Position numbers and translations under genes: made by a program. From a bacterium (GTDB lineage: Bacteria > Cyanobacteriota > Vampirovibrionia > Gastranaerophilales > Gastranaerophilaceae): a stretch of 36,551 nucleotides of DNA. Of the stretch, positions 3,543 through 18,337 are shown in pieces. Within the stretch, counting starts at the first letter, position 1. The number at the start of each line of letters is the position of its first letter. Where the stretch lies: contig JAFYDY010000007.1 in the NCBI GenBank assembly GCA_017544545.1, forward strand, positions 1 to 36,551, read 5' to 3'. The notes under the pieces were generated by a model, which saw only the letters and a program-made list of their open reading frames with translations, had not been told where the DNA came from and searched no databases.

Positions 3543-3732
3543 CTTTGCCCGACCTTATCACTTTTTTTATTTGGCTAGGATAAATAAATTCGACCGAAAA
3601 CATGTCTATATCTTTTGCAGTGTCTTTATAACATATTTCCACCACATATCTTTCATGTTCACCTATGATATCTAATATCGTAGCTTTATTTCCTGTGTCA
3701 AGTATGACCTCATCATATTCATGTATTATCAT
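3535..3732 (-). CDS. Small DUF4926-like protein
   Basis: A 65-residue protein if started at the ATG at 3732, which has AAGGG six bases upstream; a second ATG two codons earlier is too close to that site. The sequence is SH3-like in pattern: YDEVILDTG, then KATILDIIG, then YVVEICY. This resembles DUF4926-type small beta-barrel proteins. It sits between the minor head protein and the scaffold, and its last codons form half of a terminator stem. Function unknown. Related small barrels occur in many phage head operons without known role. Confidence 0.55.
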   Translation of the reverse strand: MIIHEYDEVILDTGNKATILDIIGEHERYVVEICYKDTAKDIDMFSVEFIYPSQIKKVIRSGKAL

Positions 3733-3764
3733 TGGCATCCCTTGCTATCTGTTTTAATTAAATT

Positions 3765-4802: not shown

Positions 4803-4816
4803 GTCAAATCACCCGC

Positions 4817-6250
4817 CTATTGCGAGAAATTCTCATTTGGGAAATAAGCGTCCATTTTTTCGCTCTGCTCTTCTTTCACGCGGTCAATTTCTGCTTGCAC
4901 ATCTTCAACCCAAGGATGATTTGCAATCAACGTTTCTTCAGACAAAATGCCAACAGAATTTTTGATATCTGCAATTACTTGACTCTCATTTATGATCGTG
5001 TCTTTGTTGAAGATTATCTCGACCGTCTCATTTTCAAAATTTCCTTGATTTGTGTTAGCCAAGTGCGCATTCACAAACCACAGCAAAGTTTCAAATCCAG
5101 CTTCAAATTCAATTTCCATCGCGTTTGCGTCCATGTTGATGTCATTGAAAATGGATTTGATATTCATCTCATTTGGCGTATTTCCAGAGCGTAATTCAGC
5201 AGCGTCATAGCCTTTTGCATTTGCCACTAATTCTTTTTTCATCAAGTCAACAATGGCTTTAAAATTATCCGCTTTAACTTCAATACTTAATGTCTCCACA
5301 CCGCCGTCTTCACGAACTTTTACCGCGCCATATGTTGCAAGATTTTGCCTAAACTCACCGAGATTTTCACCGTCGTAATTTTTCAAAACGAAAATCGTAT
5401 TTCTAACATCCTCTTCCATGTTGTTTTGAAAATTGCTAAGCATCGTATTAATTGAATCTTGAAGTGATTTTGTGTTGCGTATCAAAGGGATCTCCAAATA
5501 GTTATATTTGAATGGGATTAGCGGAATCCTGGACCAGTTATAATCTCTCTCCCCGATTTTCAAATAATTTTCCTTTGGCTTTTCGATATCCGGTATCAAA
5601 TTCCCATTGTTGAGCGTGTAATATTCAATGCCCTCTTCTCGGTAAACTTCAACCTTCTCAACTGTAATTTCACGCCCGTTTTTATATTCGCTAACTTCAA
5701 AAACACGCACTGCATAATCTAATTGAGTATGCTCTGAATCTTTCCAGAAAGGCAATATTTCAAACGGCGCAAAGCGTTTAAAGCAAAACTCACCGTCTTC
5801 GTTATAGTAAACGTATAACCAACCAATACCGCCATTTAAGCAGTCTGCTGTTAGCGCCTTGAATGTACGCAAAAAGTTTCGGTCAAAAATTTGATTCAAA
5901 AGCTCAAGGTATTTCTCATTGTCAGTTTTAAATGTTATCGGCTGGCCTACTAAGAAATTTACTTTTTGAGTTACAACCTTTTCGTATTGGTTATCAACAA
6001 TTTTGTTGTTGGGTAAATTGTCAATGGTTATTAGACTTCCACCTTGGCCAATTGCTGTCCTTTGCTTTTGTAAAATATCGTGATAGCCGCAATAATATCT
6101 ATCTCCAACTATTTGTTCCATTCTTTTTGGGCTTGCTTTCCACTTCAAAATTTCATTTTGCAAAAAGTCTTTGTCTGACACAATATTTTTTGCACCGTTA
6201 GTTATCATCCTGTTAAAGACATCTGTTAAATTTGGTACCTCAAAAAACAT
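4817..6250 (-). CDS. Portal protein (SPP1 gp6 family)
   Basis: About 477 residues from the ATG at 6250 (AGAGGTGG five bases upstream; an earlier in-frame GTG lacks a good site). Sequence matches the PF05133 SPP1-type portal pattern: an early VDNQYEKVVTQKVNFLVGQP segment, then FKRFAPFEILPFW, then IPLIPFKYN, and a C-terminal ANPKGYDAAEL-like helix (here ANAKGYDAAELRSG) before a charged crown. The dodecameric portal would sit at one capsid vertex, binding the terminase during packaging and the connector afterwards. It lies between terL and the gp7-like gene. Confidence 0.93.
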   Translation of the reverse strand: MFFEVPNLTDVFNRMITNGAKNIVSDKDFLQNEILKWKASPKRMEQIVGDRYYCGYHDILQKQRTAIGQGGSLITIDNLPNNKIVDNQYEKVVTQKVNFLVGQPITFKTDNEKYLELLNQIFDRNFLRTFKALTADCLNGGIGWLYVYYNEDGEFCFKRFAPFEILPFWKDSEHTQLDYAVRVFEVSEYKNGREITVEKVEVYREEGIEYYTLNNGNLIPDIEKPKENYLKIGERDYNWSRIPLIPFKYNYLEIPLIRNTKSLQDSINTMLSNFQNNMEEDVRNTIFVLKNYDGENLGEFRQNLATYGAVKVREDGGVETLSIEVKADNFKAIVDLMKKELVANAKGYDAAELRSGNTPNEMNIKSIFNDINMDANAMEIEFEAGFETLLWFVNAHLANTNQGNFENETVEIIFNKDTIINESQVIADIKNSVGILSEETLIANHPWVEDVQAEIDRVKEEQSEKMDAYFPNENFSQ

Positions 6251-6262
6251 TTTCTCCACCTC

Positions 6263-7516
6263 TCAATCAAACGAATAAGCAGCAGTTCTCATATGCTCTT
6301 CAAGCGCGTATCTCATGGCATCCATCAAGTGATTAAAATCATCAACGGGCCTGTTAATTTGTTGCCCAAACTTGTCTTTATCCCATGAGTAATTCGATAT
6401 CTCAGTTAAAAAATTTGTGCATCTAGGATGCACGATGATTTTAAAATCTTGTAAAAAATCGATGCCGGCCAAAACGCTATCTTTACCTTTGCGCGCGGCG
6501 CGAACTCTCACCAGCCCGAGTGTGCGCAATCGGTCAATACTTTTTGGTTCAGCTGCGTCTGCGATAATTCTTTCTTTGCGATAGCCGAGCTTTTCTATGC
6601 GCTCAAAAATTTGCTCGTTACTCATGCCCTTTTGATAAATCTCATCAAAAACATAAATTTCTTTTCTCTCTTTGCTTATCATCCCACAAAAAAGCGCTGT
6701 TGGATCGTTTGTGTAGCCAAAGTCCAATCCAAAAGCACTTTTTATATCCGAAATTTGCTTAATATCTTCTAAGTCGAAAAATCTCTCTTCGAAGTTGTCA
6801 TAAACTAAACCGTCAACCGCTCCCCATTCACCTAATCCAGCGACTTTATAACGGCGCGGGTTATTCTTTTTCATGTTTTCGAAAAGCTGCAAGTCCGCCT
6901 CATCCAGCCATTCATTACACATATAATTTGTTGTCATTGCCAAAATATCCGTTTTATCTTCAGCATCGAAAAATCTTTTTTTAAGCCAATGTCTATCATT
7001 CCACGGATTAAAGGTAATTGTTACGCGTTTCCATAAACCTTTTGGCAGCCGTCCACGAATACATTCATCGATGTAATCAAAATCATCTTGATTATTTAGC
7101 TCGTAAGCTTCCTCAATCCAAAGGAAGCAGATTGCACCAGTTTCAACTGATATTGATGTTAACTTTAAAGGATCATCCAATCCGCGAAATAATATCTTTT
7201 GCCCTGTCTCATAGACTAATTCCAATGGATTTGTTTTGGCTTTCCATTTTGAATCATAACCAAGCCTGTGAATTGCCCATTTTAAATCTGCAAAGCAGCT
7301 ATCTCGCAATGTCCGCTCTGTTTTTCTGATAACGAGTGCATTTGCACCGGGATGCTTCATAATTTTTACGATATGCCACAATGCCGCCGTCTTTGATTTC
7401 TTACTTGCGCGGCTACCTTTGCAAACTACATATCGTTTTTTTGTTTTCCAAAAATCACCGTAGCCGCCGCCTATTACTTCTTGCATCGAAAGTTTGCCCC
7501 TACTCTCTAACATCAT
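6263..7516 (-). CDS. terL: Terminase large subunit (PBSX XtmB-like)
   Basis: A 417-residue packaging motor. The ATPase Walker A is the GSRASKKSKT form, Walker B is CFLWIEEA, and motif III-like ITFNPWN follows. The RNase H-like nuclease domain shows FGLDFGYTNDPTAL, IIADAAEPKS and the final DDFNHLMDAMRYAL, so all expected acidic residues are present. It would cut concatemers and pump DNA through the portal. The frame overlaps the small subunit by 17 nt. An alternative start at 7486 (MQEVIGGGYG) has AGGGG ten bases upstream; I keep 7516 because relatives have a short leader before VIGGGY. Confidence 0.95.
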   Translation of the reverse strand: MMLESRGKLSMQEVIGGGYGDFWKTKKRYVVCKGSRASKKSKTAALWHIVKIMKHPGANALVIRKTERTLRDSCFADLKWAIHRLGYDSKWKAKTNPLELVYETGQKILFRGLDDPLKLTSISVETGAICFLWIEEAYELNNQDDFDYIDECIRGRLPKGLWKRVTITFNPWNDRHWLKKRFFDAEDKTDILAMTTNYMCNEWLDEADLQLFENMKKNNPRRYKVAGLGEWGAVDGLVYDNFEERFFDLEDIKQISDIKSAFGLDFGYTNDPTALFCGMISKERKEIYVFDEIYQKGMSNEQIFERIEKLGYRKERIIADAAEPKSIDRLRTLGLVRVRAARKGKDSVLAGIDFLQDFKIIVHPRCTNFLTEISNYSWDKDKFGQQINRPVDDFNHLMDAMRYALEEHMRTAAYSFD

Positions 7517-7937
7517 CTATTATCACCGGCGGTAAATTTTCATTGATTTGGACATGTTCACTGAAAATCCCAAAACGCTTTCCAGACAGCTCGGCAGCTT
7601 TCATTCTGTCTTTGTATTCTGCATTTTCATCACGCATGACGCTTGACAAAAAAGTTAATATTTCGGATGCGTCTGCAATCTTCTTCTCATCTGCCTTTTT
7701 AGCCTTTTCTACTGCCTTTTGATTTAGTTCTACAAACCTTGTGTGAACCTTGGGGTTGTCTTTATAATTTCCAGTCCCATTTATCATATTTGACGCTTCA
7801 GAATAAATATTTTCATCACTCATTTTTGTATTAGGATAAGCTTGCCTATATGCATCTGCATAACTAAGCCCATTTATAACCCCCTGCACAAACTTTTCTT
7901 GCTTTGGCGTCAACTTATCTTTTCTGTCATTTGCCAT
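7500..7937 (-). CDS. terS: Terminase small subunit (XtmA/Terminase_2-like)
   Basis: A 145-residue protein. The N-terminal KLTPKQEKFVQGVINGLSYA is the classic PF03592 opening, a helix-turn-helix that recognises the packaging site, followed by AYRQAYPN and a helical oligomerisation region. The C-terminus (residues about 100-145) would contact the large subunit. The gene begins the head operon, preceded by GGCGGTG, and is separated from the upstream unknown pair by an intrinsic terminator. No pac/cos site can be identified by reading alone. Confidence 0.93.
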   Translation of the reverse strand: MANDRKDKLTPKQEKFVQGVINGLSYADAYRQAYPNTKMSDENIYSEASNMINGTGNYKDNPKVHTRFVELNQKAVEKAKKADEKKIADASEILTFLSSVMRDENAEYKDRMKAAELSGKRFGIFSEHVQINENLPPVIIDDVRE

Positions 7938-7975
7938 GTTTTCACCGCCTTATTAAAAAATTCATGTTCAATATT

Positions 7976-8002
7976 AAAAAAGCAAAACCAAATCGGTTTT
8001 GC
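7976..8002 (-). terminator. Intrinsic terminator upstream of terS
   Basis: Minus-strand stem GCAAAACC / GGTTTTGC with a small loop and six T. It closes the two-gene unit at 8.0-8.8 kb and separates it from the terminase operon, whose late promoter must therefore lie between 7976 and 7940 or rely on readthrough. Confidence 0.8.
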
Positions 8003-8004
8003 CT

Positions 8005-8505
8005 TTAAAAAGACGTCCAAAAAGCAGTAGTCTCAAACCTTTTGTCTTGCAATGACTCTAAATCTGCAATGACTATATTTACAAATGGCAAAATAGGAAT
8101 GGAATACTTTGTTCCCCCTTGGAAAGTTAATAACCCTGGATATATTCCCCCTGCTTTTGCATCGCGATAAACACTTGCAAACCCAAATTTGCATATTCCC
8201 ACAAATGGGCGATCATACCCCGTACCAGTTGCAGACATTATGTTCCAAAATTCGCCAGTTGTATATTCACTTTTTGCATCAGTAAATTCCCAAGTTAACT
8301 GCATTGTGTAATTATACAATCCAACTCTAGCAATAAATCCACTTAAATTTTGAACACGTCCATTATTGGCAGTCAAATAATCACTAAGAGGCACATCGCT
8401 TTGTGTAGGGTCACTGCTGCAAAGATATTCAATGCCGCTTAACGCATCGATTTGATTAACTGCGCCGCCTAAATACAAATTGTTTTTGCTATTCAAAAAT
8501 TCCAT
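8005..8505 (-). CDS. Unknown beta-rich protein, possibly virion-associated
   Basis: I do not recognise this protein. About 166 residues from the second ATG (8505), which has GGAG nine bases upstream inside the end of the previous gene; the first ATG is only three bases from that site. It is rich in aromatic and glycine residues (LYNYTMQLTWEFTD, GFASVYRDAKAGG, PGLLTFQGG) with no signal peptide or membrane helix, suggesting a beta-sandwich. It is co-transcribed with the 8512-8781 gene and closed by its own terminator before terS. Candidates are a head fibre or minor decoration, or an accessory cargo gene. Confidence 0.55.
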   Translation of the reverse strand: MEFLNSKNNLYLGGAVNQIDALSGIEYLCSSDPTQSDVPLSDYLTANNGRVQNLSGFIARVGLYNYTMQLTWEFTDAKSEYTTGEFWNIMSATGTGYDRPFVGICKFGFASVYRDAKAGGIYPGLLTFQGGTKYSIPILPFVNIVIADLESLQDKRFETTAFWTSF

Positions 8506-8511
8506 CTGCAT

Positions 8512-8781
8512 CTACTCCATTTTCAATATTGCTAGCTCACTAGCTATAGAATACGCCTTTACTGTTGTATTTTCTTTGTGTTTGTATCGCACAACCGAAA
8601 AAGGGATTTGGACATTACGCTGTGCTGTACTTTCACTGCTTGAAACAATCGTGTCGTAATTAATGCTTGATAACCCCACGTTTTGTAGTTCATAAGTTGC
8701 AGCATTGTCAAAACTGCCTAATGTATTTTCTATGATAGTTTCGATATCGACTTTTGCGCTTGTAATATTTGCATTACTCAT
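8512..8781 (-). CDS. Unknown small protein upstream of the beta-rich gene
   Basis: An 89-residue protein, Ser/Thr/Asn-rich, beginning MSNANITSAKVDIETIIENT. It contains alternating polar and hydrophobic segments (NVQIPFSVVRYKH) compatible with strands. Its stop precedes the next gene's start by a few bases, so the two form a pair. It has a good GAGGAGG site. It is flanked upstream by the terminator at 8850-8873, so the pair is transcriptionally isolated from the toxin-like locus. No family is recognised; a structural role is possible only by its proximity to the head genes. Confidence 0.5.
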   Translation of the reverse strand: MSNANITSAKVDIETIIENTLGSFDNAATYELQNVGLSSINYDTIVSSSESTAQRNVQIPFSVVRYKHKENTTVKAYSIASELAILKME

Positions 8782-8808
8782 TTTTTGGCCTCCTCAAATT
8801 TTTTTTGC

Positions 8809-8838
8809 TTGCATAAATCAAATTTTCTATGCTATAAT
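8809..8838 (+). promoter_or_regulatory. Promoter for plus-strand small RNA (module at 8.9 kb)
   Basis: TTGCAT at 8809-8814, an 18-base spacer and TATAAT at 8833-8838 with an extended TGC. It fires toward the end of the peptide gene at 8941-9126. A second candidate (TTGTAA, 17, TATAAT at 8936-8941) lies too close to the terminator to make a useful RNA. Confidence 0.7.
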
Positions 8839-8844
8839 ATCCAC

Positions 8845-8979
8845 ATAACAAAAAAGAGAGCTTTCGCTCTCTTAACAGCAGTCCGCTTTAAAGGCGGCGG
8901 CTTGCAACTTAATTGTAATTATAAATGTTTTACGATATAATTACCGTTGCTTACCTCTGCGAAAGGTGCAACGGTTTTT
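8845..8979 (+). ncRNA. Candidate antitoxin RNA convergent with the 8.9-kb peptide gene
   Basis: Predicted from a strong promoter (8809-8838) and an intrinsic terminator on the plus strand (CCGTTGC 8944-8950, GCAACGG 8968-8974, then five T). The RNA, about 135 nt, overlaps the last 39 bases of the opposing peptide gene, so it can pair with the 3' end of that mRNA as RatA does with TxpA or SR4 with BsrG. It contains GCGGCGGCTTGC at 8894-8905, whose reverse complement lies at 9156-9167 in the leader of the peptide gene. No experimental support; the layout is the evidence. Confidence 0.55.
8850..8873 (-). terminator. Intrinsic terminator for minus-strand transcription
   Basis: AAGAGAGC and GCTCTCTT form a perfect 8-bp stem with a four-base loop, followed by six T on the minus strand. 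A peptide mRNA ending here would include the 3' partner (8894-8905) of its own 5' leader repeat. Confidence 0.85.
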
Positions 8980-9126
8980 GTTTGTTTTTTTCGCTTTCAA
9001 TTCACTCATTTTTTGATTGAATTTGTAATCAAAAAACCAGTTTTGAAAACTAATAAACAGACCAAAAACATTGGCCGTTAATACAATGACTTCAAGGATT
9101 TCCTTGAGGTCTTTTTGTATTACCAT
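8941..9126 (-). CDS. Small membrane peptide, candidate type I toxin
   Basis: A 61-residue peptide from ATG 9126, preceded by GGGGGC; a longer frame to 9159 would start inside the leader hairpin. Residues about 10-32 (LEVIVLTANVFGLFISFQNW) form one membrane helix, and the tail is very basic (KAKKTNKNRCTFRRGKQR), like TxpA/BsrG-class or holin-like toxins. In the mRNA leader CCCC at 9148-9151 pairs with GGGG at 9135-9139, hiding the ribosome binding site. The last 12 codons are encoded by the terminator hairpin of the opposing RNA. A TATAAT with extended TGA lies at 9196-9201. It could instead be a small phage membrane protein with no toxin role. Confidence 0.55.
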   Translation of the reverse strand: MVIQKDLKEILEVIVLTANVFGLFISFQNWFFDYKFNQKMSELKAKKTNKNRCTFRRGKQR

Positions 9127-9195
9127 ACGCTTCGCCCCCTTTCTATTGGGGTTTAGCAAGCCGCCGCTGTCCTTTATCGCAAATGCTGTAAGTTT

Positions 9196-9204
9196 ATTAT
9201 ATCA
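9196..9204 (-). promoter_or_regulatory. Extended -10 promoter of the 8.9-kb peptide gene
   Basis: Minus strand reads TGATATAAT, an extended -10 element, with no good -35. Transcription would start near 9189 and include the 12-base leader repeat at 9156-9167. Confidence 0.55.
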
Positions 9205-9215
9205 TATCTCGAGCT

Positions 9216-9359
9216 TTATTCGCTTTTTTCGCGCATCATAAGCTCGATTTTTTCATCAATTCGCTTCATAACACTTCGGTGAAATTGACTAACAATGTCA
9301 ATCACCAGAGTAAAAATTAGTGTTATGGCAATACATAATTCAAATATCTTAAAAAGCAT
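9216..9359 (-). CDS. Small single-pass membrane protein
   Basis: A 47-residue peptide: MLFKIFELCIAITLIFTLVI gives one N-terminal membrane segment, then a cytoplasmic charged helix ending IELMMREKSE. Its ribosome binding site GAGGTG lies in the last codons of the preceding gene (9362-9553), so the two are coupled. It resembles small hydrophobic peptides of phage early operons; a holin-like or anti-holin role cannot be excluded but it is far from the lysis genes. Unrecognised family. Confidence 0.6.
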   Translation of the reverse strand: MLFKIFELCIAITLIFTLVIDIVSQFHRSVMKRIDEKIELMMREKSE

Positions 9360-9361
9360 GG

Positions 9362-9553
9362 TTACACCTCTTTTTGAGACTTATTTTCTAATATCTCATA
9401 CAAAAGCTTTAATGCTTCAACTTGCACCATAAAATCGTCTGAATCCGCAGCTCTTAGAAGCACATCAGCCAATAGTATCACTATTGTTTCATCATGTTCT
9501 GCGTACAACCTGTCTATTATTTCTTTTCTTTTCTCAAAAAAATTTTCTGCCAA
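9362..9553 (-). CDS. Small helical early protein, unknown function
   Basis: A 63-residue acidic, helical protein starting with TTG (MAENFFEKRKEIIDRLYAEH), preceded by AGAGGTG seven bases upstream. It has two amphipathic helices and no cysteines. It lies downstream of an intrinsic terminator (9580-9607), so it may be made from its own promoter or by readthrough. It is translationally linked to the small membrane protein that follows. No family recognised. Confidence 0.6.
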   Translation of the reverse strand: MAENFFEKRKEIIDRLYAEHDETIVILLADVLLRAADSDDFMVQVEALKLLYEILENKSQKEV

Positions 9554-9579
9554 TTTATTACACCTCTTTTTTTTGCACC

Positions 9580-9607
9580 AAAAAACGAGCCTCCGTCAAA
9601 GCTCGTT
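9580..9607 (-). terminator. Intrinsic terminator closing the early operon
   Basis: Minus strand AACGAGC / GCTCGTT stem with a ten-base loop and a run of six T. It follows the 9681-9908 gene and probably ends most early transcription from the divergent promoter near 17.9 kb. Confidence 0.8.
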
Positions 9608-9680
9608 GTTTTTGTGTGTCAAAATATACATAATTCAAAGGAGAGTTCGCTATGAAAAACAAAATAAGTGTTTGTTTGGT

Positions 9681-9908
9681 TTAGCGTGCTACGTATTTTA
9701 CTTTTGGCTCTTGAATATTTTCTTGAGCCTTGTTTAATTCATCGGCTTTTTGTTTGTATATATCAAACATACGCGATAATTCTTTATCACGAAATATACT
9801 AGCTTTCTCTTGATCAAAACCACAGCTAACTATTTCGTTTATGTCATTTCTAACATCTTCAAAAGTACGGCCATTAATTATAACTTTGCGCTCTTCAATC
9901 TTTTCCAC
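9681..9908 (-). CDS. Small helical protein after the late regulator, unknown
   Basis: A 75-residue protein started at GTG 9908. It has a short beta opening (KVIINGRTFEDVRNDIN) followed by long charged helices (KELSRMFDIYKQKADELNKA). It is the last gene before the early-operon terminator and directly follows the ArpU-like gene, so it could be a small regulator or partner of it. No recognised family, no membrane segment, no cysteine cluster. Confidence 0.6.
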   Translation of the reverse strand: MEKIEERKVIINGRTFEDVRNDINEIVSCGFDQEKASIFRDKELSRMFDIYKQKADELNKAQENIQEPKVKYVAR

Positions 9909-10001
9909 GTAGCACTCACCTCACTAATTGTTTTGGTTATCCTTGCATTATTTATTATATGCAACATAAAGCCAACATTTCCAACAAGTTCTATTGAGAC
10001 T

Positions 10002-10400
10002 TCAACGAGACTTCAAGTATCTATAACAAGCCATTTGAACAGTTGCTTCTGTATTCCCGCCACCAACATAACACGCTATTGCTTCCCACTTTTTGCAGTC
10101 AATAAATCTCAGTTTAAATATCAATCTCAAAAAACAATCATCAATCGACTCAATAAAATGCATCAATCGTTTTTCCTCGTAAACCCTTTTTAGCTTTTTA
10201 AACTCTAGCATCTCTTCCAAGTCAACAATGGTAGCGACTTTTTCCGCCATTATGTCATGCGTCATTGATTTACTTTTAGGCATATCGCTATACCTCGAAG
10301 TAGTTTTTAACTCGACCATTTTCAAATCTTTTAACCGCCTTGAATCCCTCTGTATTTCACGATTTAAGTAATAAAGCTGTGATAATTCTTTTAATGTCAT
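10002..10400 (-). CDS. Late-gene transcription regulator, DUF1492/ArpU-like
   Basis: A 132-residue helical protein. It starts MTLKELSQLYYLNREIQRD and has a long amphipathic helix, then a C-terminal sigma-70-region-4-like helix-turn-helix (LRLIFKLRFIDCKKWEAIACYVGG followed by EATVQMACYRYLK). These are features of the ArpU/RinA/DUF1492 family that activate packaging and structural genes at the end of early transcription. Its position as nearly the last early gene, just before terminase, fits. The start overlaps the preceding stop in an ATGA arrangement. Its target promoter is not identifiable here. Confidence 0.8.
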   Translation of the reverse strand: MTLKELSQLYYLNREIQRDSRRLKDLKMVELKTTSRYSDMPKSKSMTHDIMAEKVATIVDLEEMLEFKKLKRVYEEKRLMHFIESIDDCFLRLIFKLRFIDCKKWEAIACYVGGGNTEATVQMACYRYLKSR

Positions 10401-10672
10401 TTTAGCGCCCCCCGTAAAACACTATTGATAATCCCTTGAATGCAACAAGGAATGTCAATTTCATCTGTACATGAACAAGAAAGATATTGCTTTTCGAAAC
10501 CACAAAAATCACTGCAAACGGAATAACCATTTTTTTCTTTGGTTACGTAAATGCATAAATTCTCATCCTCTAAATCCAAAAATCGAAATACTAATTCATC
10601 CGTTTTGTCATTAATTTGATTTTGAATTATTTCACTATCAAGCCAATCCAAATATATTTTTTTTGCGTCCAT
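10397..10672 (-). CDS. Small cysteine-rich early protein
   Basis: A 91-residue protein from ATG 10672 (AGAGGTGAGACA upstream); the longer open frame to 10714 overlaps the previous gene and is not needed. It starts MDAKKIYLDWLDSEIIQNQI. The middle carries CSDFCGFEKQYLSCSC and later CC, six cysteines in about 30 residues, suggesting metal binding. It overlaps the late-regulator gene by 4 nt. Function unknown; a small zinc-binding regulator of host or phage transcription is one possibility. Confidence 0.6.
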   Translation of the reverse strand: MDAKKIYLDWLDSEIIQNQINDKTDELVFRFLDLEDENLCIYVTKEKNGYSVCSDFCGFEKQYLSCSCTDEIDIPCCIQGIINSVLRGALK

Positions 10673-10683
10673 TGTCTCACCTC

Positions 10684-10926
10684 TTAATGATATTTTGGGA
10701 AAGTTATTCCACACTCATCTTTCAACGCTTTTTCTATGTCTTCAACCTTTAGCCAATCGTCTTTTATGTCTTCCCATAACGTATCCCAAGTTTCCCAAAA
10801 ACTATCGAGTTTCTCACGGTCAAAATCAAATTTATCATGCAAAACCCAAAGCACAGAAAAGGCTATGCTATCAAACCAATTTTGGAATTTAGCCCTTTGA
10901 ATTTCTCTATCACGTCTAGCACTCAA
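10684..10926 (-). CDS. Conserved-type small early phage protein
   Basis: An 80-residue protein with TTG start at 10926, AGGAGG eight bases upstream and located across the end of the Myb-like gene. The pattern is a basic N-terminal RxREIQRAKFQ helix, a hydrophobic DSIAFSVLWVLHDKFDF segment and an acidic Trp-rich helix (SFWETWDTLWEDIKDDW). Similar short proteins are common in early operons of Bacillota phages and have no known role. It is not a membrane protein despite the aromatic content. Confidence 0.6.
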   Translation of the reverse strand: MSARRDREIQRAKFQNWFDSIAFSVLWVLHDKFDFDREKLDSFWETWDTLWEDIKDDWLKVEDIEKALKDECGITFPKYH

Positions 10927-10927
10927 T

Positions 10928-11941
10928 TCAATTACCTCCTCCCAAACAATTAGTGCAATCGGGCATTGTGCAATTTAAGCACATATTTATTTTTTGCTTA
11001 TCATCGAAAGATTCTTTTCTACTCATTCCGTTTAAACCTAATTCTTTTCTGCTTTTCTGTCTGATTTTGTAATAGCTAGCCATTGAGCGAACTGTTGCTA
11101 ATGAGCGCTCTAATTTTTTTGCGCACTCTAGCCAACTAATTCCGTTATCCGCGCAATATCTCATATATTCTTTTTCTTTGTCTGTCCATTTTCGAAGATT
11201 ATGCCCAATAGGAAAACCCAAATAATAAGCACGCATTTTTATGGCTCCTGCAGTCCTATTTAATTTTTTCGCACACTCAGCCAATGACAACCCATTCAGC
11301 AAATATTTTTTAAGTTTTTTATCTTCGGTTTCTAGCCATCTTTTCCCTCGTGGCTTTTTAGGCAAAAACCCAAATATCTTCGCTTGCCTTTTAATCTCAT
11401 AAATATTTCTGCCCAATTTATTTGCGCATTCTTCTAAGCTCATTTTTGCTTGCAATTCTTTTTTTAGGTTTTCTTTTTCTTCCTGCGTCCATACTCTCCG
11501 TTTTTTAGTTTCCAACCCTAATTCATGTGCTTTTTTATATATCGTAGTTAAACCCTTTCCAAGCTTAGTAGCGCAAAAAGACCACTTAACATCGTTTTGA
11601 ACACAATATCTTAAATAATCTATTTCGTTCTGTTTCCACCGTTTTCTGCCTGTAATTTTCAAGCCTAATTTTTTAACTTTTTGTCTAACATTCGAAATTG
11701 ATTTTTTAAACATTTTAGCGCATTCGATTAAATCAATATTGTTTTCTAATGCCTTTTTTAGCTTGCTTTCCTCTGCTTGTGTCCATTTGCAAGAGTTCGA
11801 TAATCCTAATTTCCACTTTACATAATAGACGCTATTTACCGGCCTATTTAATTTTTTTGCGCAAGTTTCATACCGAATACCATTTTCTGCACAGTAGCGA
11901 ACATACTCAACTTCACTTTGCAACCATTTTTCACCGCTCAA
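10928..11941 (-). CDS. Six tandem Myb/SANT-like repeats, putative DNA-binding protein
   Basis: About 337 residues if begun at TTG 11941, six bases after a GGGGGGG site; ATGs at 11947 and 11956 are in frame but badly spaced, so the start is uncertain. Six repeats of about 50 residues fill most of the protein. Each has an opening Trp (KW/RW), an acidic-basic helix, then ECAKKL or similar and a third helix ending LGL or LGF. Repeats 1, 3 and 6 share YxRYC-NG, repeats 2, 4 and 5 share LKK-L. The C-terminus has CLNCTMPDCTNC, a possible zinc knuckle. Each repeat resembles a Myb/SANT or GcrA-like helix-turn-helix, so the protein may read an extended DNA site. Function unknown. Confidence 0.7.
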   Translation of the reverse strand: MSGEKWLQSEVEYVRYCAENGIRYETCAKKLNRPVNSVYYVKWKLGLSNSCKWTQAEESKLKKALENNIDLIECAKMFKKSISNVRQKVKKLGLKITGRKRWKQNEIDYLRYCVQNDVKWSFCATKLGKGLTTIYKKAHELGLETKKRRVWTQEEKENLKKELQAKMSLEECANKLGRNIYEIKRQAKIFGFLPKKPRGKRWLETEDKKLKKYLLNGLSLAECAKKLNRTAGAIKMRAYYLGFPIGHNLRKWTDKEKEYMRYCADNGISWLECAKKLERSLATVRSMASYYKIRQKSRKELGLNGMSRKESFDDKQKINMCLNCTMPDCTNCLGGGN

Positions 11942-12065
11942 AGCCATCCCCCCCATATAGCAATTTAAACCTATCAAATTTTCGTTTTATCTTTTTAGTG
12001 ATAAATAATACTACTAAGACATAAACTTTTTAACACAGATTAAATTTGCCGCCTTAGATTTGATT

Positions 12066-12386
12066 CTAAACTTCTGTGATTTGTATCCCGTGAAAATACA
12101 ACATCAATTTTCTTTTGATTTTATAAACGTCGGTCCGCATTCCTTTGACGTCTTCGACAACCATTTGCCCCGTCTCACAATCGGTATAAACAAAATCAGC
12201 GACGTAAAAACACGCTCTTTCACCTTTCTGTTTTGGTATGAGCTCAAATTTGACTTGCAGTTGCAAATCTTTTATAAGCCCTTGGGTTTGTAACAAACAA
12301 AGTTCTTTAAACCTCGTAGCCTCTTTTTTAGAATCAAACTTTTTACCGTCCACTATTGTTTTTTTACTGCGATACTTTCTGTACAA
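12066..12386 (-). CDS. DUF1064 nuclease-like recombination protein
   Basis: About 106 residues. I choose TTG 12386 (MYRKYRSKKT), eight bases after GGCGG, because family members begin at this point; an open frame continues to 12422 inside the previous gene. The PF06356 pattern is clear: FDSKKEATRFKELCLL, ERACFYVADFVYTD, VVEDVKG and YKIKRKL, with the Glu, Asp and Lys arrangement of a PD-(D/E)xK nuclease fold. It may act as a Holliday-junction or recombination nuclease alongside ERF and SSB. It overlaps the DUF1599 gene. Confidence 0.8.
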   Translation of the reverse strand: MYRKYRSKKTIVDGKKFDSKKEATRFKELCLLQTQGLIKDLQLQVKFELIPKQKGERACFYVADFVYTDCETGQMVVEDVKGMRTDVYKIKRKLMLYFHGIQITEV

Positions 12387-12652
12387 CGCTTTATCCGCCT
12401 TTCTATTCCCTCCATAATGCAATAATTTGCTAAATCAAAAAGCGTATTTTCTATGGATTCATCTTCAACTTGTCTTTCTTTGCCGCTTAAAAGTGTTTTA
12501 AGCCTACGAAATTTAATCTCTATGAAAAATAATATTGCATCCGGATATTCTTCTCTTAGTCTTGCGAATGCGTCCCCATAATCACTATTTTTGCGTTTGA
12601 AAATTTCGTTTAGCTCTTTGCAAATGTCTAAATGCATTTGGACTTTGTCCAT
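12353..12652 (-). CDS. DUF1599-like nucleotide-metabolism protein
   Basis: A 99-residue protein matching the PF07659 layout: KNSDYGDAFARL near the start, RRLKTLLSG in the middle and ESIENTLFDLANYCIM near the end. The acidic residues are arranged as in MazG-like all-alpha NTP pyrophosphatases, so a nucleotide-sanitising or nucleotide-pool role is likely but unproven for this family. It lies between the replisome organiser and the DUF1064 gene. Start ATG with AAGGAG. Confidence 0.85.
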   Translation of the reverse strand: MDKVQMHLDICKELNEIFKRKNSDYGDAFARLREEYPDAILFFIEIKFRRLKTLLSGKERQVEDESIENTLFDLANYCIMEGIERRIKRCTESIAVKKQ

Positions 12653-12680
12653 TACAAAATCAACTCCTTAAAAATTTTTA

Positions 12681-13577
12681 TTAGTCTTCCATGGCTAATC
12701 GCTCAATTTCTTCAAAGTCATATTCTCTAGGTTTAAAATTTTGAAACTTACTAGTTGATTTATTGCTGGGTTTTTTAGCAGGTTGATTTAAATATGATTC
12801 AAACTTAGTAGAAAATAGAGTTACTGGGCGTAAATATTTATACATACTCGGATCATTAACCCACTCAATAGTTTTTTTATCGATCACGTTTTTAAAATCA
12901 TCGATTGTAAATCCCTCTTTTAGTCTTGCGTTAACTAGCTCTAATGTTTTTTTATTTTCGGCTTTATAACGTGTATTTAATTTGGCATTCAAATAATCAA
13001 TTATGGTCTTGACTTTTGCTTTTAGGTTTTGTGCTTTTTTGGTTTTTAAAGGTGGTGAATTTGGTTTTTCAAGACAAGATATATCTTTAGATATATCTTT
13101 ATATATCTCTTTCTCTATCTCTATCTCTACGTTTGGTTTTTGTTTCATTTTTTCTCGTTGTTGTTGCATTGCAATTTCATTGTTGTTGCATTGCAACATT
13201 TTTTGATTGTTTTGTTTAGCCCTATATTCTCTTGAACGTTGAGCGCTAGCCGTTTCAGAGCCTATTAAATCTTGCACAGCCAATAGCATTATTGAACCAT
13301 CATCTAAAACTGATGCAAGATTAATTTTTATCAAAGCTGGGATAAGCAACTTTAATGCATTTATATCCTCACTCAATGAAAGTGATAATTCTTCTTCAAT
13401 GGTTGGAAACATATTGTCGTATTGCAACAAACCATTTGTTGTCAAACTATTTAATTGCATATGCAAATAAACATTCACCAATTTATCGCCATCTGGCAAC
13501 GAACGTAAATATTTTGTTGTCTTTAACTCGAAAAAATTTGACATCAATCTAAGCCAATAATATCTTTTGATTTCCAC
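12681..13577 (-). CDS. Phage replisome organiser (lytic replication initiator/helicase loader)
   Basis: A 298-residue protein with a GTG start after AGAGGTG. Residues 1-120 match the Phage_rep_org_N winged-helix pattern (RYYWLRLMSNFF through SLTTNGLLQYDN, and SREYRAKQ). A low-complexity Gln/Lys linker follows, then a C-terminal Phg_2220_C domain at about 185-270 (IIDYLNAKLNTRYK, LKEGFTIDDFKNVIDKK, YLRPVTLFSTKFESYLNQ). Such proteins bind the phage lytic origin and recruit the host helicase. Its presence beside a separate Rep_3 plasmid initiator implies two modes of replication: lytic and plasmid maintenance. Confidence 0.88.
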   Translation of the reverse strand: MEIKRYYWLRLMSNFFELKTTKYLRSLPDGDKLVNVYLHMQLNSLTTNGLLQYDNMFPTIEEELSLSLSEDINALKLLIPALIKINLASVLDDGSIMLLAVQDLIGSETASAQRSREYRAKQNNQKMLQCNNNEIAMQQQREKMKQKPNVEIEIEKEIYKDISKDISCLEKPNSPPLKTKKAQNLKAKVKTIIDYLNAKLNTRYKAENKKTLELVNARLKEGFTIDDFKNVIDKKTIEWVNDPSMYKYLRPVTLFSTKFESYLNQPAKKPSNKSTSKFQNFKPREYDFEEIERLAMED

Positions 13578-13627
13578 GTTATCACCTCTTTTGCTTTATC
13601 GTTTCTAAAATTTCATTGCCAAAATGT

Positions 13628-13957
13628 TTAACGCTGTAATTCTTGCCATAGCTTTTCTTCATCAAATTTAAAATATTTTTTCTCTGAAAGCCCCAAATTA
13701 CAGTAATCTATAATGCCAACGCTTTTTAATTCAAATAATTCATCTCTTAATTGCTTTTCATCAAGCCCCGTATTATCCTTAAACTTTTTTATTGTGGTAT
13801 AAAAAAAGCCATTTACTAATTCTTTTTTTTGCTGGCAACAACTTTGTTGATTTATTAATTCAATGATTATCGCAGCACGGGCCAATCCAAATCTTTTTAG
13901 CAACTTTTTATTTATAACTAATGCGTTATTTGGCTCTAAAAGCTCAACCCAATTCAT
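13628..13957 (-). CDS. Winged-helix replication-associated protein
   Basis: A 109-residue protein from ATG 13957 with AAGGGGGTG six bases upstream; an in-frame codon nine bases earlier lacks a site. The pattern is NNALVINKKLLKRFGLARAA, then GFFYTTIKKFKDNTGLDEKQ and LFELKSVGIIDYCNLG, that is, a winged helix of the kind seen in phage DnaD-like or initiator N-termini. It is encoded between SSB and the replisome organiser and probably assists primosome assembly or regulates the replication block. CCQQKK at about 43 is a cysteine pair of unknown importance. Confidence 0.65.
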   Translation of the reverse strand: MNWVELLEPNNALVINKKLLKRFGLARAAIIIELINQQSCCQQKKELVNGFFYTTIKKFKDNTGLDEKQLRDELFELKSVGIIDYCNLGLSEKKYFKFDEEKLWQELQR

Positions 13958-13972
13958 AGCAAACACCCCCTT

Positions 13973-14359
13973 TTAAAATGGCAAATAATCATCTTCGCTA
14001 TCTGCTTTTGGCTCACTATTGATATTTTCTTTAGCTTCATTTTTGCTTTGCGCAAACTCTTGATTTTCTAAAACCACATAAGCTTTATAAACCGTCTTAT
14101 CCTCTTGGTTTTTGTAACTGTCAATTTGCAACCTTCCACTCACACAAACTCGCATTCCCTTTTTGAAATATTCGTTTGCAAACTCCCCGGCTTTGCCAAA
14201 TGCAACGCAATTAATAAAATCCGTATTTTGCGCCCCCTCTTTTTTGCGCTGCCTATCAACTGCAATAGTGTATCTAACTACTGCTACCGGATTTTCAGCT
14301 TGCGAATATCTCAACTCTGGATCCCTGACTAATCTACCCATCAAAATTATTTTATTCAT
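13973..14359 (-). CDS. ssb: Single-stranded DNA-binding protein
   Basis: A 128-residue SSB. The OB-fold pattern MNKIILMGRLVRDPELRYSQ, then VVRYTIAVDR, FINCVAFGKAGEFANEYFKKG and VSGRLQIDSYK is complete. The acidic tail DSEDDYLPF matches the partner-binding tip of bacterial SSB. It would coat single strands and recruit replication and recombination proteins, working with the ERF annealing protein encoded upstream. The upstream 130 bases hold a long inverted repeat. Confidence 0.95.
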   Translation of the reverse strand: MNKIILMGRLVRDPELRYSQAENPVAVVRYTIAVDRQRKKEGAQNTDFINCVAFGKAGEFANEYFKKGMRVCVSGRLQIDSYKNQEDKTVYKAYVVLENQEFAQSKNEAKENINSEPKADSEDDYLPF

Positions 14360-14386
14360 TTGAAAAATACCCCCTATATTATTTGC

Positions 14387-14479
14387 GCTAATATAACGTA
14401 CCTAGATTTTATTTTTCGTTTTAGGCGATAAAAATTACCTATAACAATTTAAAATAAAAATTAGGCACATTATATTAGC
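14387..14479. repeat. Long imperfect inverted repeat upstream of ssb
   Basis: Arms of 30 bases at 14387-14416 and 14450-14479 match at 25 positions (outer ends GCTAATATAA and TTATATTAGC), with a 33-base AT-rich loop. The stretch between the ankyrin gene and ssb holds nothing else. It may be a cruciform or hairpin in the early mRNA, a small non-autonomous element, or part of a lytic origin. It is not a standard terminator, since no T-run follows on either strand. Confidence 0.7.
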
Positions 14480-14490
14480 GGATTTGGCTA

Positions 14491-14916
14491 TTATAAATTT
14501 GTCTTGCTAGCATCCTCTAATATTCTTTGTTTAATTTCCTGATTTTTTATTTTGCTTAGCAAGTTTATTGCTCCTGAATAGTGATGTTTCACCGCAGTCA
14601 CAATTGCGGCCCATCCATATTCATCTTTATTTTTGACATCTGTGCATTTTTCGAGTATCGTAGCCATTGCTTTTTTGTTGTAAAATTGCGCTGCATATCT
14701 AAGAGCACCCCTTCCATCTTTATCCTTAGCGCCAATATCGGCGCCGTTTTGAATTAGCATTTTGATTGCTTCTGCATTGCAGCCTGGTGCTGCATATATG
14801 AGCGCAGTACATCCTTTTTCGTCTCTAAATTCAACATCTGCGCCATTTTCTATTAGCTTTTTGATTTCGTCTGCATTGTTGAATTTTGCTGCCCATATAA
14901 GTTCGTTTTTGTCCAT
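14491..14916 (-). CDS. Ankyrin-repeat protein
   Basis: A 141-residue protein with about four ankyrin repeats: an opening ELIWAAKFNNADEIKKLIEN, then GADVEFRDEKGCTALIYAA, GADIGAKDKDGRGALRYAA and DVKNKDEYGWAAIVTA. No signal peptide or catalytic domain. Ankyrin proteins act by binding other proteins; a phage copy in the early operon between ERF and SSB could counter host defence or modify a host partner, as proposed for some 'ankyphages', but nothing here names a target. A possible cargo gene: it abuts the long inverted repeat. Confidence 0.85.
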   Translation of the reverse strand: MDKNELIWAAKFNNADEIKKLIENGADVEFRDEKGCTALIYAAPGCNAEAIKMLIQNGADIGAKDKDGRGALRYAAQFYNKKAMATILEKCTDVKNKDEYGWAAIVTAVKHHYSGAINLLSKIKNQEIKQRILEDASKTNL

Positions 14917-14943
14917 TTCTTGCTCCTTTAATAAATTAGCTTG

Positions 14944-15546
14944 TTAGCAAGTTTCCGCCTCTGCTAAAATTGCTTGCTCCTTTTTGGCAATCAAATATTC
15001 AAGTATTTTGTTATTTAATTGCCAAAGGTAGCCGACTTTATATTTTTTACATACGGCCTCTATTTGGGCTTCATTCAACAAATTTTCTAATCTGCTAACT
15101 AATTCTGAATCAGACGGTTTAAAATCGGCTTTGGGTTTGTGCTTTGGTTTTTGCTCTTGCCCCGCGATAGCGTCGGAAAAATCATCTTCGACAATCTCGT
15201 AAGCTGTGAGATACAAATATCTGCGCGAATAAGTCTCAACGCCACCCAACCCTTGAATTTTGTTGCAGCCTTTGAGCTCAAGCTCTCTCATCGGTGAAGT
15301 AAATTTTAATGTCATATCCGATTCACAATCGTAAATGATTAAGCTGGCTTCCTCGTTTGTGAACGAAATACAATTGCAAACGCCGTATTTGTCGCATAAC
15401 TTATTTAGCTCTGGTAAAAAGTCCGATAGTTCGTAATACTTGAATCCTGCATATTTGTTCATGCCGCTTTTTTTCAAATCCATTTCTTGTAGTTCAACCC
15501 TGATTTTCTGGATTTTCTGGTATAAATTTAATTTCATGTTTTCCAT
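14944..15546 (-). CDS. erf: ERF-family single-strand annealing recombinase
   Basis: A 200-residue protein with the PF04404 ERF core: KYAGFKYYELSDFLPELNKL, SLIIYDCESD and the hallmark GGVETYSRRYLYLTAYEI followed by EDD. Residues about 130-200 form a separate lysine-rich helical tail. It promotes annealing of complementary single strands for recombination and concatemer formation, with SSB and the DUF1064 nuclease encoded downstream. Start is ATG with GGAGGG seven bases before; it overlaps a 47-residue gene upstream by 13 nt. Confidence 0.92.
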   Translation of the reverse strand: MENMKLNLYQKIQKIRVELQEMDLKKSGMNKYAGFKYYELSDFLPELNKLCDKYGVCNCISFTNEEASLIIYDCESDMTLKFTSPMRELELKGCNKIQGLGGVETYSRRYLYLTAYEIVEDDFSDAIAGQEQKPKHKPKADFKPSDSELVSRLENLLNEAQIEAVCKKYKVGYLWQLNNKILEYLIAKKEQAILAEAETC

Positions 15547-15677
15547 GTTGCATCCCTCCTAATTGCTTTTAAATTAAATTTGCTGTCAATGATGTAATTT
15601 AGCCGCCTAACGGCTTTTTTTAATTGCATCTCTTTTTCTTTCAAGTCATCGACTTTTTTATCTTCGTTTGTTTGCAT
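15534..15677 (-). CDS. Small helical protein overlapping erf
   Basis: A 47-residue charged peptide beginning MQTNEDKKVDDLKEKEMQLK, with a GGCGG site 7 bases before the ATG. It is a single long amphipathic helix (coiled-coil-like), rich in Lys and Asp. It overlaps the start of erf by 13 nt, so its translation probably couples to it. The unlikely chance of such a spacing plus a good ribosome site supports it as a real gene. No function known. Confidence 0.6.
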   Translation of the reverse strand: MQTNEDKKVDDLKEKEMQLKKAVRRLNYIIDSKFNLKAIRRDATWKT

Positions 15678-15688
15678 TTTGCACCGCC

Positions 15689-16171
15689 TTATTTGATTTC
15701 CAGCCGTTCAACTTGCACTAACTGAACACCGTCTATGAAAAGTCCACTTTTTACGTCATCCTTCAAAAGTGCTTTGTCCAATATCGGCGCTTGTGCTTTG
15801 TAATACTCATCCGGTATTCGTGCATCCGGTGCGATTTGTAAGCTTGGCGGATTTTTCTTGATGGAAATGTCAAACTCCGGACGATGTATCTTTTTTGCAT
15901 CAGTCATTTTCATGCCATCAAACATAAGCTCTTTTAATCGCGCTGCGTTATTTTCAAGTCTTTTTTTCCGCTCTGATAGTCTTTTTTCTTCATCCTTGCA
16001 CACTTGTACATCGCTTAAAATTTGGCGATATACCCTCGCACAACTAACAAGTATTTCTTCTTCGGTAAACTTGAGCGTGTCATAAATTTCTTTGTCGATT
16101 CCGTCTTCACTTTCTAGCTGTTCTAAAATTTGCATTTCAATTTCGCTTAGTTTGTATAAAAGCACTTTCAC
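15689..16171 (-). CDS. Gp157-like protein (siphovirus Gp157 family)
   Basis: A 160-residue protein with GTG start after AAGGGGGG. The first half is a coiled coil (ARVYRQILSDVQVCKDEEKR and ERKKRLENNAARLKEL). The PF05565 pattern follows: FDISIKKNPPSLQI and IPDEYYKAQAPILDKALLKDDVKSG. Family members are linked to resistance to phage superinfection in Streptococcus phages and to recombination gene blocks. It precedes erf, its usual neighbour. Confidence 0.88.
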   Translation of the reverse strand: MKVLLYKLSEIEMQILEQLESEDGIDKEIYDTLKFTEEEILVSCARVYRQILSDVQVCKDEEKRLSERKKRLENNAARLKELMFDGMKMTDAKKIHRPEFDISIKKNPPSLQIAPDARIPDEYYKAQAPILDKALLKDDVKSGLFIDGVQLVQVERLEIK

Positions 16172-16183
16172 AATCCCCCCTTT

Positions 16184-16360
16184 TTACTTGCGTTTGAAAA
16201 TATCCCCCAAAACTTTTTTAGTGTATTTGTCCGCTTCTTCTTTCGTTGGCATTTCGTAATTTTTATCTTCCATGTATCTCAATAAAGCCAATCCGCCAAT
16301 GTAAGACAAAAACCAGCCAAGAGCACATATGCCAATTGCTATTAACAATAAAATTTTCAT
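16184..16360 (-). CDS. Small single-pass membrane protein of the early operon
   Basis: A 58-residue protein from ATG 16360 (MKILLLIAIGICALGWFLSY), eight bases after AAGGAAG; a GTG six codons upstream has no site. Residues 1-27 are a membrane anchor; the rest is charged and cytoplasmic (NYEMPTKEEADKYTKKVLGD). It overlaps nothing but ends shortly before the Gp157 gene. A superinfection-exclusion or signal-anchored helper is possible; no family recognised. Confidence 0.6.
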   Translation of the reverse strand: MKILLLIAIGICALGWFLSYIGGLALLRYMEDKNYEMPTKEEADKYTKKVLGDIFKRK

Positions 16361-16364
16361 GGTT

Positions 16365-17108
16365 TCAACTTCCTTCACTAGTGATTTGCATTTTGCAGTT
16401 AGATTCTGGTATAATGGCTATGTCAGTTAAAATATCTAATCTGCTTTTGCAGAGCTTATAAATGCTGTGACGGTCAAGGTTTTGTTTCATGCCTTCCGTC
16501 ACAGTTTTTACTATGCTGCTTTCTGCGATGCTTAGATACATTAACTGCTTACCACTGATTAAATCGCGCATATTTCCATGTATGCCGGCTAACTTATTAG
16601 CGAGTTTCGAAAAATGAACATAATATCTATCGGCGTTCTTGCTTCCTTGGGCTTTGGCATATTCAATAAATTTTTTTATTGCATCAGTTTCTTCGCGTCT
16701 TGCTAGCTTTCCTAGTTGGCGTGTCTGTTGCCATGCGAGATTCTGTTTTTCGGCTTGCACTTTTAAATAGCCTTTTCTCAATCCTTCCAAAAGTTCATAG
16801 ACAAAATCGTAAAAATCGTTTGCCTTGGGCTGATTGCTCCACCGGCATATTTCATAAACCCCTCTTGTGGAATATAAAAATGTCTCACGTTCTCTACCAT
16901 CAACAGTCTGCGTTTTGCGGACTGTTGAAAACTTGTCCATCCGCTCTTTATGTCTATTGTGAATATCAGAAATGGATTTTTTAGGATTCTTATATCCCAA
17001 TGCTTTTCCAATTTGTTCACGCGTCATAAAGAAATCTTCGCCGCTTTGCCAAACGTCACATTTTAACTTTCCAAATTTTTTATCTTTCACCAATATAAAT
17101 TTGCTCAT
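16365..17108 (-). CDS. Phage antirepressor with BRO-N domain
   Basis: A 247-residue protein. Residues about 12-110 are a BRO-N domain (PF02498): VWQSGEDFFMTREQIGKALG, KFSTVRKTQTVDGRERETF and the STRGVYEICRWSNQPKAN motif. The C-terminal part (about 125-247) is a helical region of the kind found in antirepressors, with a tract KKFIEYAKAQGSKNADRYYVH. It is the first large early gene downstream of the divergent promoter, so it probably opposes the XRE repressor or host regulators to switch from plasmid maintenance to lysis. Start ATG with GGAGTG. Confidence 0.85.
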   Translation of the reverse strand: MSKFILVKDKKFGKLKCDVWQSGEDFFMTREQIGKALGYKNPKKSISDIHNRHKERMDKFSTVRKTQTVDGRERETFLYSTRGVYEICRWSNQPKANDFYDFVYELLEGLRKGYLKVQAEKQNLAWQQTRQLGKLARREETDAIKKFIEYAKAQGSKNADRYYVHFSKLANKLAGIHGNMRDLISGKQLMYLSIAESSIVKTVTEGMKQNLDRHSIYKLCKSRLDILTDIAIIPESNCKMQITSEGS

Positions 17109-17136
17109 TTTTCTTCACTCCTTATTACATAAAAGC

Positions 17137-17242
17137 CCGGATTTCAAATCCGACCTTTAACATTTCCAATTGTTTAAATTGCACTTTCAGCCCCATGTGA
17201 GACTGAAAGTGTTTTAGCTTTATTTCCGGATTTCAAATCCGA
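17137..17242. promoter_or_regulatory. Two identical palindromic sites around a hairpin, before the antirepressor gene
   Basis: The 17-base sequence CCGGATTTCAAATCCGA occurs at 17137-17153 and again at 17226-17242; its inner 15 bases are a perfect palindrome. Between them CACTTTCAG (17182-17190) and CTGAAAGTG (17203-17211) make a 9-bp hairpin. The pair sits in the 150 bases upstream of the antirepressor, where operator sites or an mRNA structure controlling its synthesis would be expected. The binding protein is unknown. Confidence 0.6.
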
Positions 17243-17956: not shown

Positions 17957-17989
17957 ACTTTTTAATATCTAGGATAAGGTGTTTTGGCT

Positions 17990-18337
17990 ATGTCGATTAA
18001 CTATCGTATTAAAGAATTACGGGAAATATTGGGCTTGTCTCAAGCTAAATTTGCAAAGAATATATCTATATCAAATGGCTATATTGCAGAAATTGAATTA
18101 GGTAATCGAAAAATTAATGACCGAATTATCAAATTAATTTGTGCTGTATATTGTGTAAACGAATCTTGGCTAAAAACAGGCGAAGGAAATATTTTTATCT
18201 CAAGTTTTCAAGATCAGGAAACTGAACATGCCATGAGAATTTTTAAGCGTTTAAGCCCAAAATTTCAACAATATGTCCTAAATCAAATAGAGAATTTGTT
18301 AGAATTACAAAATGCACTTCTAAACGATGGGAAATAG
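17990..18337 (+). CDS. XRE-family repressor (lysogeny/maintenance switch)
   Basis: A 115-residue protein from ATG 17990, eight bases after AAGGTG; an upstream TTG two codons earlier is less well placed. Residues about 3-65 are a Cro/CI helix-turn-helix (IKELREILGLSQAKFAKNIS, NGYIAEIELGNRKI, VNESWLKTGEG). A short C-terminal helix (QQYVLNQIENLLELQN) should allow dimerisation. There is no peptidase domain, so induction is not by RecA-type self-cleavage; the BRO-N antirepressor may do it. It is the only plus-strand gene in the switch region. Confidence 0.9.
   Translation: MSINYRIKELREILGLSQAKFAKNISISNGYIAEIELGNRKINDRIIKLICAVYCVNESWLKTGEGNIFISSFQDQETEHAMRIFKRLSPKFQQYVLNQIENLLELQNALLNDGK

Follow-up and report, generated by a model that had tools for sequence, protein, structure and literature searches.

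The window (the whole stretch of DNA that was analysed, 36,551 nucleotides in length) carries on its minus strand, at 10928-11941, a gene for a protein with six tandem helix-turn-helix (HTH) repeats, 337 amino acids long when read from TTG 11941 (hereafter the array gene and the array protein). The first-pass annotation had placed an open frame here and named no strand; the frame is present and remains open up to TTG 11977, with other in-frame starts at ATG 11947 and ATG 11956. A run of seven G residues (11948-11954), six bases before TTG 11941, is a candidate ribosome-binding site. The array protein has a net charge of +38 and a pI of 9.75. The gene, its parts and its immediate neighbours are the following:

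10002..10400, minus strand: PHROG 36 transcriptional regulator, common to the window and to the related phage fragment L039
10684..10926, minus strand: small protein, PHROG 17690, downstream neighbour, TTG start
10928..11941, minus strand: array gene, matching PHROG 323 with five stretches (E 2.2e-49)
10946..10981, minus strand: Cys tail C-x2-C-x4-C-x2-C (CLNCTMPDCTNC), a sequence motif and putative metal site
11057..11197, minus strand: repeat 6, aligning with the second L039 repeat
11207..11347, minus strand: repeat 5, aligning with the first L039 repeat; above the gathering cut-offs of two Pfam models, Sigma70_r4_2 and GcrA (HTH part only)
11360..11500, minus strand: repeat 4, contributing to the alignment with 5yiu, the DNA-binding domain of GcrA (model residues 145-192)
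11507..11647, minus strand: repeat 3, seen in pairwise scores, model, profile and tree (paired with repeat 1)
11654..11794, minus strand: repeat 2, seen in pairwise scores, model and foreign-repeat profile
11795..11935, minus strand: repeat 1, seen with the foreign-repeat profile; helices 8-19, 24-31 and 35-45 of the AlphaFold2 model
11955..12065, minus strand: leader between the resolvase gene and the array gene, resembling the L039 leader; possible promoter or operator
12066..12422, minus strand: DUF1064 / PHROG 190 Holliday-junction-resolvase-like protein (profile match), upstream neighbour

Gene order and genome context

Most genes of the window lie on the minus strand. In the direction of transcription, the array gene is preceded by genes for a Mu Gam-like protein, an Erf-like annealing protein, an ankyrin protein, SSB, a replisome organiser and the DUF1064 resolvase-like protein, and followed by two small genes, the PHROG 36 regulator (which we take to be ArpU-like), the small and large terminase subunits, portal, scaffold and major head protein. 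It thereby falls into the final part of the early block, shortly ahead of the packaging genes. A GGAGG within the final codons of the array gene directly precedes the TTG start of the small gene at 10684..10926. Within the early block, the ankyrin-repeat protein (14491-14916, minus strand; Ank_2, E 7e-20) is encoded between the SSB and Erf-like genes, and further downstream a GP20-b cis-regulatory RNA of Rfam (3457-3515, minus strand; 41.3 bits, gathering score 36.2) lies just upstream of the scaffold gene.

The contig has 141 identical bases at both ends and therefore represents a phage genome that is circular and about 36.4 kb in size. It encodes a Rep3-family initiator (19101-20279; Rep3_N 6.9e-18, Rep3_C 3.3e-16) accompanied by 22-bp iterons over 20244-20397, as well as a CI-like repressor on the plus strand (17984-18337), and no integrase was found among the window proteins scanned. 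Taken together, these sequence features make a phage-plasmid likely. Near the repressor gene, two identical 17-nt palindrome-like elements (17137-17153 and 17226-17242, 89 bp apart) are possible operators. On the plus strand, opposite to most genes, there is also a HicB-like antitoxin (20798-21178; PF15919, E 9.9e-14), for which no HicA partner was identified. Two putative small-RNA genes that are paralogues of each other (22006-22135 and 24837-24970, plus strand) oppose the late genes; they gave no match in Rfam or in the phages collection. Both have a conserved promoter-like TTGACG-N17-TAnCAT, a hairpin conserved at the 5' end and, before a U run, a stem resembling a terminator, in which paired changes occur (GUC/GAC vs ACC/GGU). 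Both stretches align with a related phage contig (L130, 5193-5277 and 7856-7990).

A contig near-identical to the window (JAFXSD010000051.1, 17189 bp; L034) is binned in a metagenome-assembled genome (MAG) of sheep rumen, Elusimicrobia bacterium RGIG6696, and differs from window positions 2931-17189 by 1 mismatch in 14259, with the same coordinate numbering. With the terminase of the window as query, 4 of 147 related genomes, its own included, give matches at E <= 1e-60. Because of this result and the near-identical contig in the Elusimicrobia MAG, no host is assigned, and the host binning of this sheep-rumen phage should not be trusted.

Repeats, predicted fold and Cys4 tail

The six repeats are about 47 amino acids long, follow each other at a pitch of 47-51 residues, and begin in the 337-residue form at W6, W53, W102, W151, W202 and W252, the one invariant tryptophan of each repeat. 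Their number, as given in the first-pass annotation, is borne out in two ways: all 15 pairs of repeats score 32-108 (BLOSUM62, ungapped), against a maximum of 32 for any pair across 2000 shuffled sets, and all six are detected (total E 8.7e-31) by a profile of 14 repeats that come from other proteins only, with no window repeat included.

The proposed division into two alternating subtypes (1, 3, 6 and 2, 4, 5) fared less well. It is the top split among the 10 possible ways to divide the repeats three and three, but it is not significant: its identity sum was matched by 243 of 2000 within-column permutations and its count of fully split columns by 547 of 2000. Nor is the order alternating, as the subtypes run ABABBA. 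In the repeat tree, which rests on 43 columns and has one starred branch among 19 inner branches, repeats 1 and 3 form the sole supported pair inside the array (90/85). A pairwise or two-step expansion read from alternating subtypes was dropped, the split not being significant. Repeats within the array share 23-40% of their protein positions (11-19 of 47) and 42-54% of their DNA; the expansion is therefore old. Recent tandem duplication was rejected on the grounds of this 42-54% DNA identity and of the Tandem Repeats Finder output, in which a 16-base array is the sole entry for the gene.

AlphaFold2, run on the single sequence, predicts six three-helix modules with block pLDDT values mostly in the 80s within the repeats, while the linkers, predicted to be flexible, and the tail are poor (pLDDT < 50 for the tail) and the pTM of 0.24 for the whole protein leaves the relative arrangement of the modules undefined. 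The top structural match is the DNA-binding domain of GcrA (5yiu; Z 8.6, rmsd 1.3 Å over 48 residues), followed by its complex with methylated DNA (5yiv; Z 8.1, rmsd 1.2-1.3 for both) and then by Tc3 transposase and Myb-type repeats; this ranking by VIA-align covers Foldseek's own PDB candidates, and Z values near 8 are common for helical models. Foldseek itself gave no match at E <= 0.001 against the PDB, the top rows including Reb1, Cbp1 and c-Myb, and 20 matches at that threshold against BFVD, among them one D5 protein and two annotated endonucleases. The predicted modules are thus HTH units nearest to the GcrA DNA-binding domain, and not a non-DNA-binding fold. Basic recognition helices, the second feature on which the first-pass annotation had made DNA binding depend, are present as well, helix 3 being net positive in 6/6 repeats (+1 to +4). 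On the strength of the model, the array protein very likely binds DNA.

Binding is also probably sequence-specific. Compared pairwise, the repeats have mean identities of 0.31 in helix 1, 0.56 in helix 2 and 0.17 in helix 3, and this pattern of a most variable helix 3 on a retained scaffold fits modules that would read different bases. It is plausible, by analogy, that the six modules read one long composite DNA site.

The repeats are followed by the Cys4 tail, for which metal binding is somewhat more probable than not. The C-terminal tail of the L039 relative reads CFNCPLKDCINC, and the four cysteines are common to both proteins. The predicted models of the two proteins contain no metal ion and are unreliable in this part. 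Retroviral zinc knuckles have the CCHC spacing C-x2-C-x4-H-x4-C; the array tail, C-x2-C-x4-C-x2-C without histidine, departs from it, and the earlier label “zinc-knuckle-like” is therefore not adopted in the strict sense. A strict pattern of the tail was found in 0 stretches of the viral_contigs collection and a looser one in 8, although both patterns fix the asparagine positions and therefore miss diverged tails. One of the 8 is L039 again (as L122); the other 7 were rejected, their frame being either a Cys-rich protein of a different kind or short and spurious. With the tail alone as query, one weak phage match (E 1) and one weak PHROG (5288, E 0.0099) were obtained. After these pattern and tail-only searches, the idea of the tail as a widespread module was dropped.

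Known tandem arrays and a two-repeat relative

The first-pass annotation had called such an array unusual in phage. This view has to be abandoned: arrays of this type are already known in phages, as the family PHROG 323 with T5 D5-like proteins and the BFVD matches illustrate, and sequence libraries contain many phage multi-HTH arrays. Under the wide definition of a phage multi-HTH (Myb/GcrA-like) array, i.e., at least two tandem three-helix repeats each led by a tryptophan, the array protein belongs to this group. Profiles of foreign repeats, built with a protein's own kin left out, detect 7, 5, 4 and 6 repeats in L002, L011, L036 and L037, the latter two being phage records from human faeces. 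In a jumbo-phage survey, Myb-type HTH factors are described as expanded in phages resembling Bacillus phage G (PMC7824862). The array protein is a real, well-formed member of an already known kind and not categorically new. What long phage multi-HTH arrays bind was not reported in any paper found in a limited literature search.

The nearest family label is PHROG 323, “transcriptional regulator, D5-like”. The best of the five matching stretches places protein residues 208-317 on profile positions 91-199 of 319, and it is mainly on this repeat part of the profile that the protein matches locally several times over. T5 D5 itself matches the profile collinearly over its full length (1-253 on 3-270), whereas the array protein shows no such collinear whole-profile match; it is therefore not filed as a D5 orthologue, although the two share the repeat type. 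T5 D5, which a GenBank note annotates as DNA-binding and required for replication and late transcription, has the same type of tandem repeat, but with four weak repeats and no Cys4 tail instead of six clear repeats and a tail. A further relative by fold is the D5 protein of Vibrio phage vB_ValS_X1 in BFVD.

Among cellular proteins, the DNA-binding domain of Caulobacter GcrA resembles one array module (5yiu, 5yiv), although GcrA has one such module and the array six. The Pfam GcrA model scores 29.7 bits on repeat 5 (cut-off 26.9), which identifies a DNA-binding domain of the type at the N-terminus of GcrA, the match spanning profile positions 2-33 of 155 only. GcrA joins its single DNA-binding domain to a sigma-binding domain, as stated in PMC7403470, and a GcrA homologue is described in phiCbK-like phages (PMC3556154). 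The array protein gives no sign of the C-terminal sigma-interacting domain; its repeats are followed by a short linker and the Cys tail.

Eukaryotic Myb/SANT proteins (c-Myb, Reb1, Cdc5; 1h88, 5eyb) also consist of tandem three-helix modules with a leading tryptophan, like the array. Myb repeats have three spaced tryptophans; these are absent from the array repeats, which have one invariant tryptophan each. The Pfam Myb model (PF00249) stays below its gathering cut-off of 24.4 on the array protein (10.8 bits, E 0.55), so that the protein is not counted as Myb. A profile of the eight repeats of the window and L039 has as its top PDB chain 2lvs, a CRISPR-repeat-binding protein (E 5.1e-4), which is also a Foldseek match of the array model (prob 0.98). 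The archaeal proteins Cbp1 and Cbp2 carry tandem HTHs that arose by domain duplication, three and two in number, and the three HTHs of Cbp1 are arranged in series on the CRISPR repeat (PMC10883916). They are like the array protein in having tandem HTHs whose number differs between related proteins, but are archaeal host proteins with a known target, lack a Cys tail and have no tryptophan at the repeat starts in the aligned part.

A direct comparison is provided by the phage fragment L039, whose terminase is 78% identical to that of the window and which carries a related array protein with two repeats only. Its genes are ordered DnaD-like, array, PHROG 36 regulator, small terminase and large terminase. 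The two repeats, predicted as two three-helix modules, correspond in the alignment to repeats 5 and 6 of the window and are followed by the Cys4 tail. The protein is not truncated, since the DnaD-like frame ends ahead of it and a leader and a TTG start precede its first repeat. Judged by sequence and gene order, the two-repeat form is a syntenic relative with an array shorter by four modules, which is a new point; array length has therefore changed between relatives. Duplication as the origin of the repeats, suggested early on, gains support from this relative and from the tree, in which window and L039 repeats cluster (88/86) separately from those of L002 (85/91). This lineage-specific grouping suggests that four modules were gained rather than lost. 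As the two genes share the same tail and a similar leader, the pair offers a natural experiment on module number versus site length, and such a comparison would bear on the reading of one module per site segment outside Cbp1 and Myb.

Other relatives are few. With the window terminase as query, 153 related loci were confirmed in viral_contigs, and among the best 80 of these 153, many of them too short, L039 is the 1 locus with a related array; none was seen in the open reading frames of the other 79. The PHROG 36 regulator occurs in 17 of the best 80. Four loci (L041, L047, L070 and L086) include over 6.8 kb of sequence upstream of the terminase, with a PHROG 36 regulator, yet no array; the gene is therefore accessory, which speaks against a role as core late activator. 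The array protein as query found no close relative in viral_contigs and only an identical copy in genome_contigs; overall, its search returned 2 distant phage records and, among 194 genomes, 2 distant ones besides its own. PHROG 323 was dropped as too unspecific a query for counting relatives, with matches in 139/188 genomes and 11/14 control genomes.

Proposed function and competing explanations

Most probably, the array protein is an accessory regulator that recognises specific sequences and is encoded in the last part of the early operon. To the reading that the array gene encodes a sequence-specific DNA-binding regulator built of six tandem GcrA/Myb-like three-helix modules we assign a probability of roughly 0.55; a role in transcription, for which the PHROG 323 label argues, is likewise held to be slightly better than an even bet. 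Such a regulator would be expressed late in the early operon, its gene lying close to those for the PHROG 36 regulator and for packaging. Each module would insert helix 3 into the major groove, and the modules might lie in series on a composite site that is several tens of base pairs long, comparable to Cbp1 on the CRISPR repeat. The Cys4 tail could bind zinc and touch a partner, be it RNA polymerase, a second copy or the neighbouring regulator; a partner-binding end is a guess by analogy to GcrA. Duplication or loss of modules would alter the length of the array.

The regulator might also act on its own conserved leader. The leaders of the window and L039 align locally with a score of 74, compared with a mean of 52.2 (sd 5.8) for shuffles, of which 1 in 1000 scored as high. 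Further copies of the best conserved leader word are not above chance in the window (5 seen, 3.05 expected), so that this search gave no binding site, a point against the regulator reading; promoter-like sites are no more numerous there than chance predicts (53 found, 56 expected). A more elaborate version is speculative and rather unlikely to hold as a whole: the protein would be a length-variable modular DNA reader, in which the C-terminal two modules and the Cys4 tail are kept, N-terminal modules are added or lost, and the target lengthens with each module, the leader being a core autoregulatory site for the last two modules.

Alternatively, the array protein could serve recombination or replication, as a DNA-binding partner that guides the DUF1064/RusA-type resolvase to chosen sites or structures. 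The resolvase gene directly adjoins the array gene upstream, and T5 D5 is annotated as needed for replication, too. Moreover, the array repeats of L036 and L037 match PHROG 190 at positions 7-100 and 14-70, outside the part matched by the resolvase of the window (169-281), and such repeats are seemingly fused into some PHROG 190 members. However, the L039 array comes after a DnaD-like gene, and no resolvase was found in between; moreover, the nearest family label refers to transcription regulation. This explanation is considered doubtful.

Still less probably, the protein coats or maintains DNA without much preference for sequence, and might, e.g., organise or partition the circular phage-plasmid genome. 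The high positive charge (+38) and the many modules would suit this role, as would a phage-plasmid-like genome in which no partition gene was identified. On the other hand, the third helices vary on a conserved scaffold, as expected of base-specific reading, and apart from the Rep3 iterons no multi-copy centromere-like array was seen in the window. Finally, same-fold arrays annotated as endonucleases in large phages (BFVD A0A482MMZ3 and A0A172Q0C1) and the HNH family PHROG 1891, which matches such repeats, would allow for an orphaned DNA-recognition array of a selfish endonuclease that has lost its nuclease, but this origin is very improbable, as the L039 relative, also without a nuclease, retains gene position, leader and Cys tail, which suggests selection on the protein in its present form.
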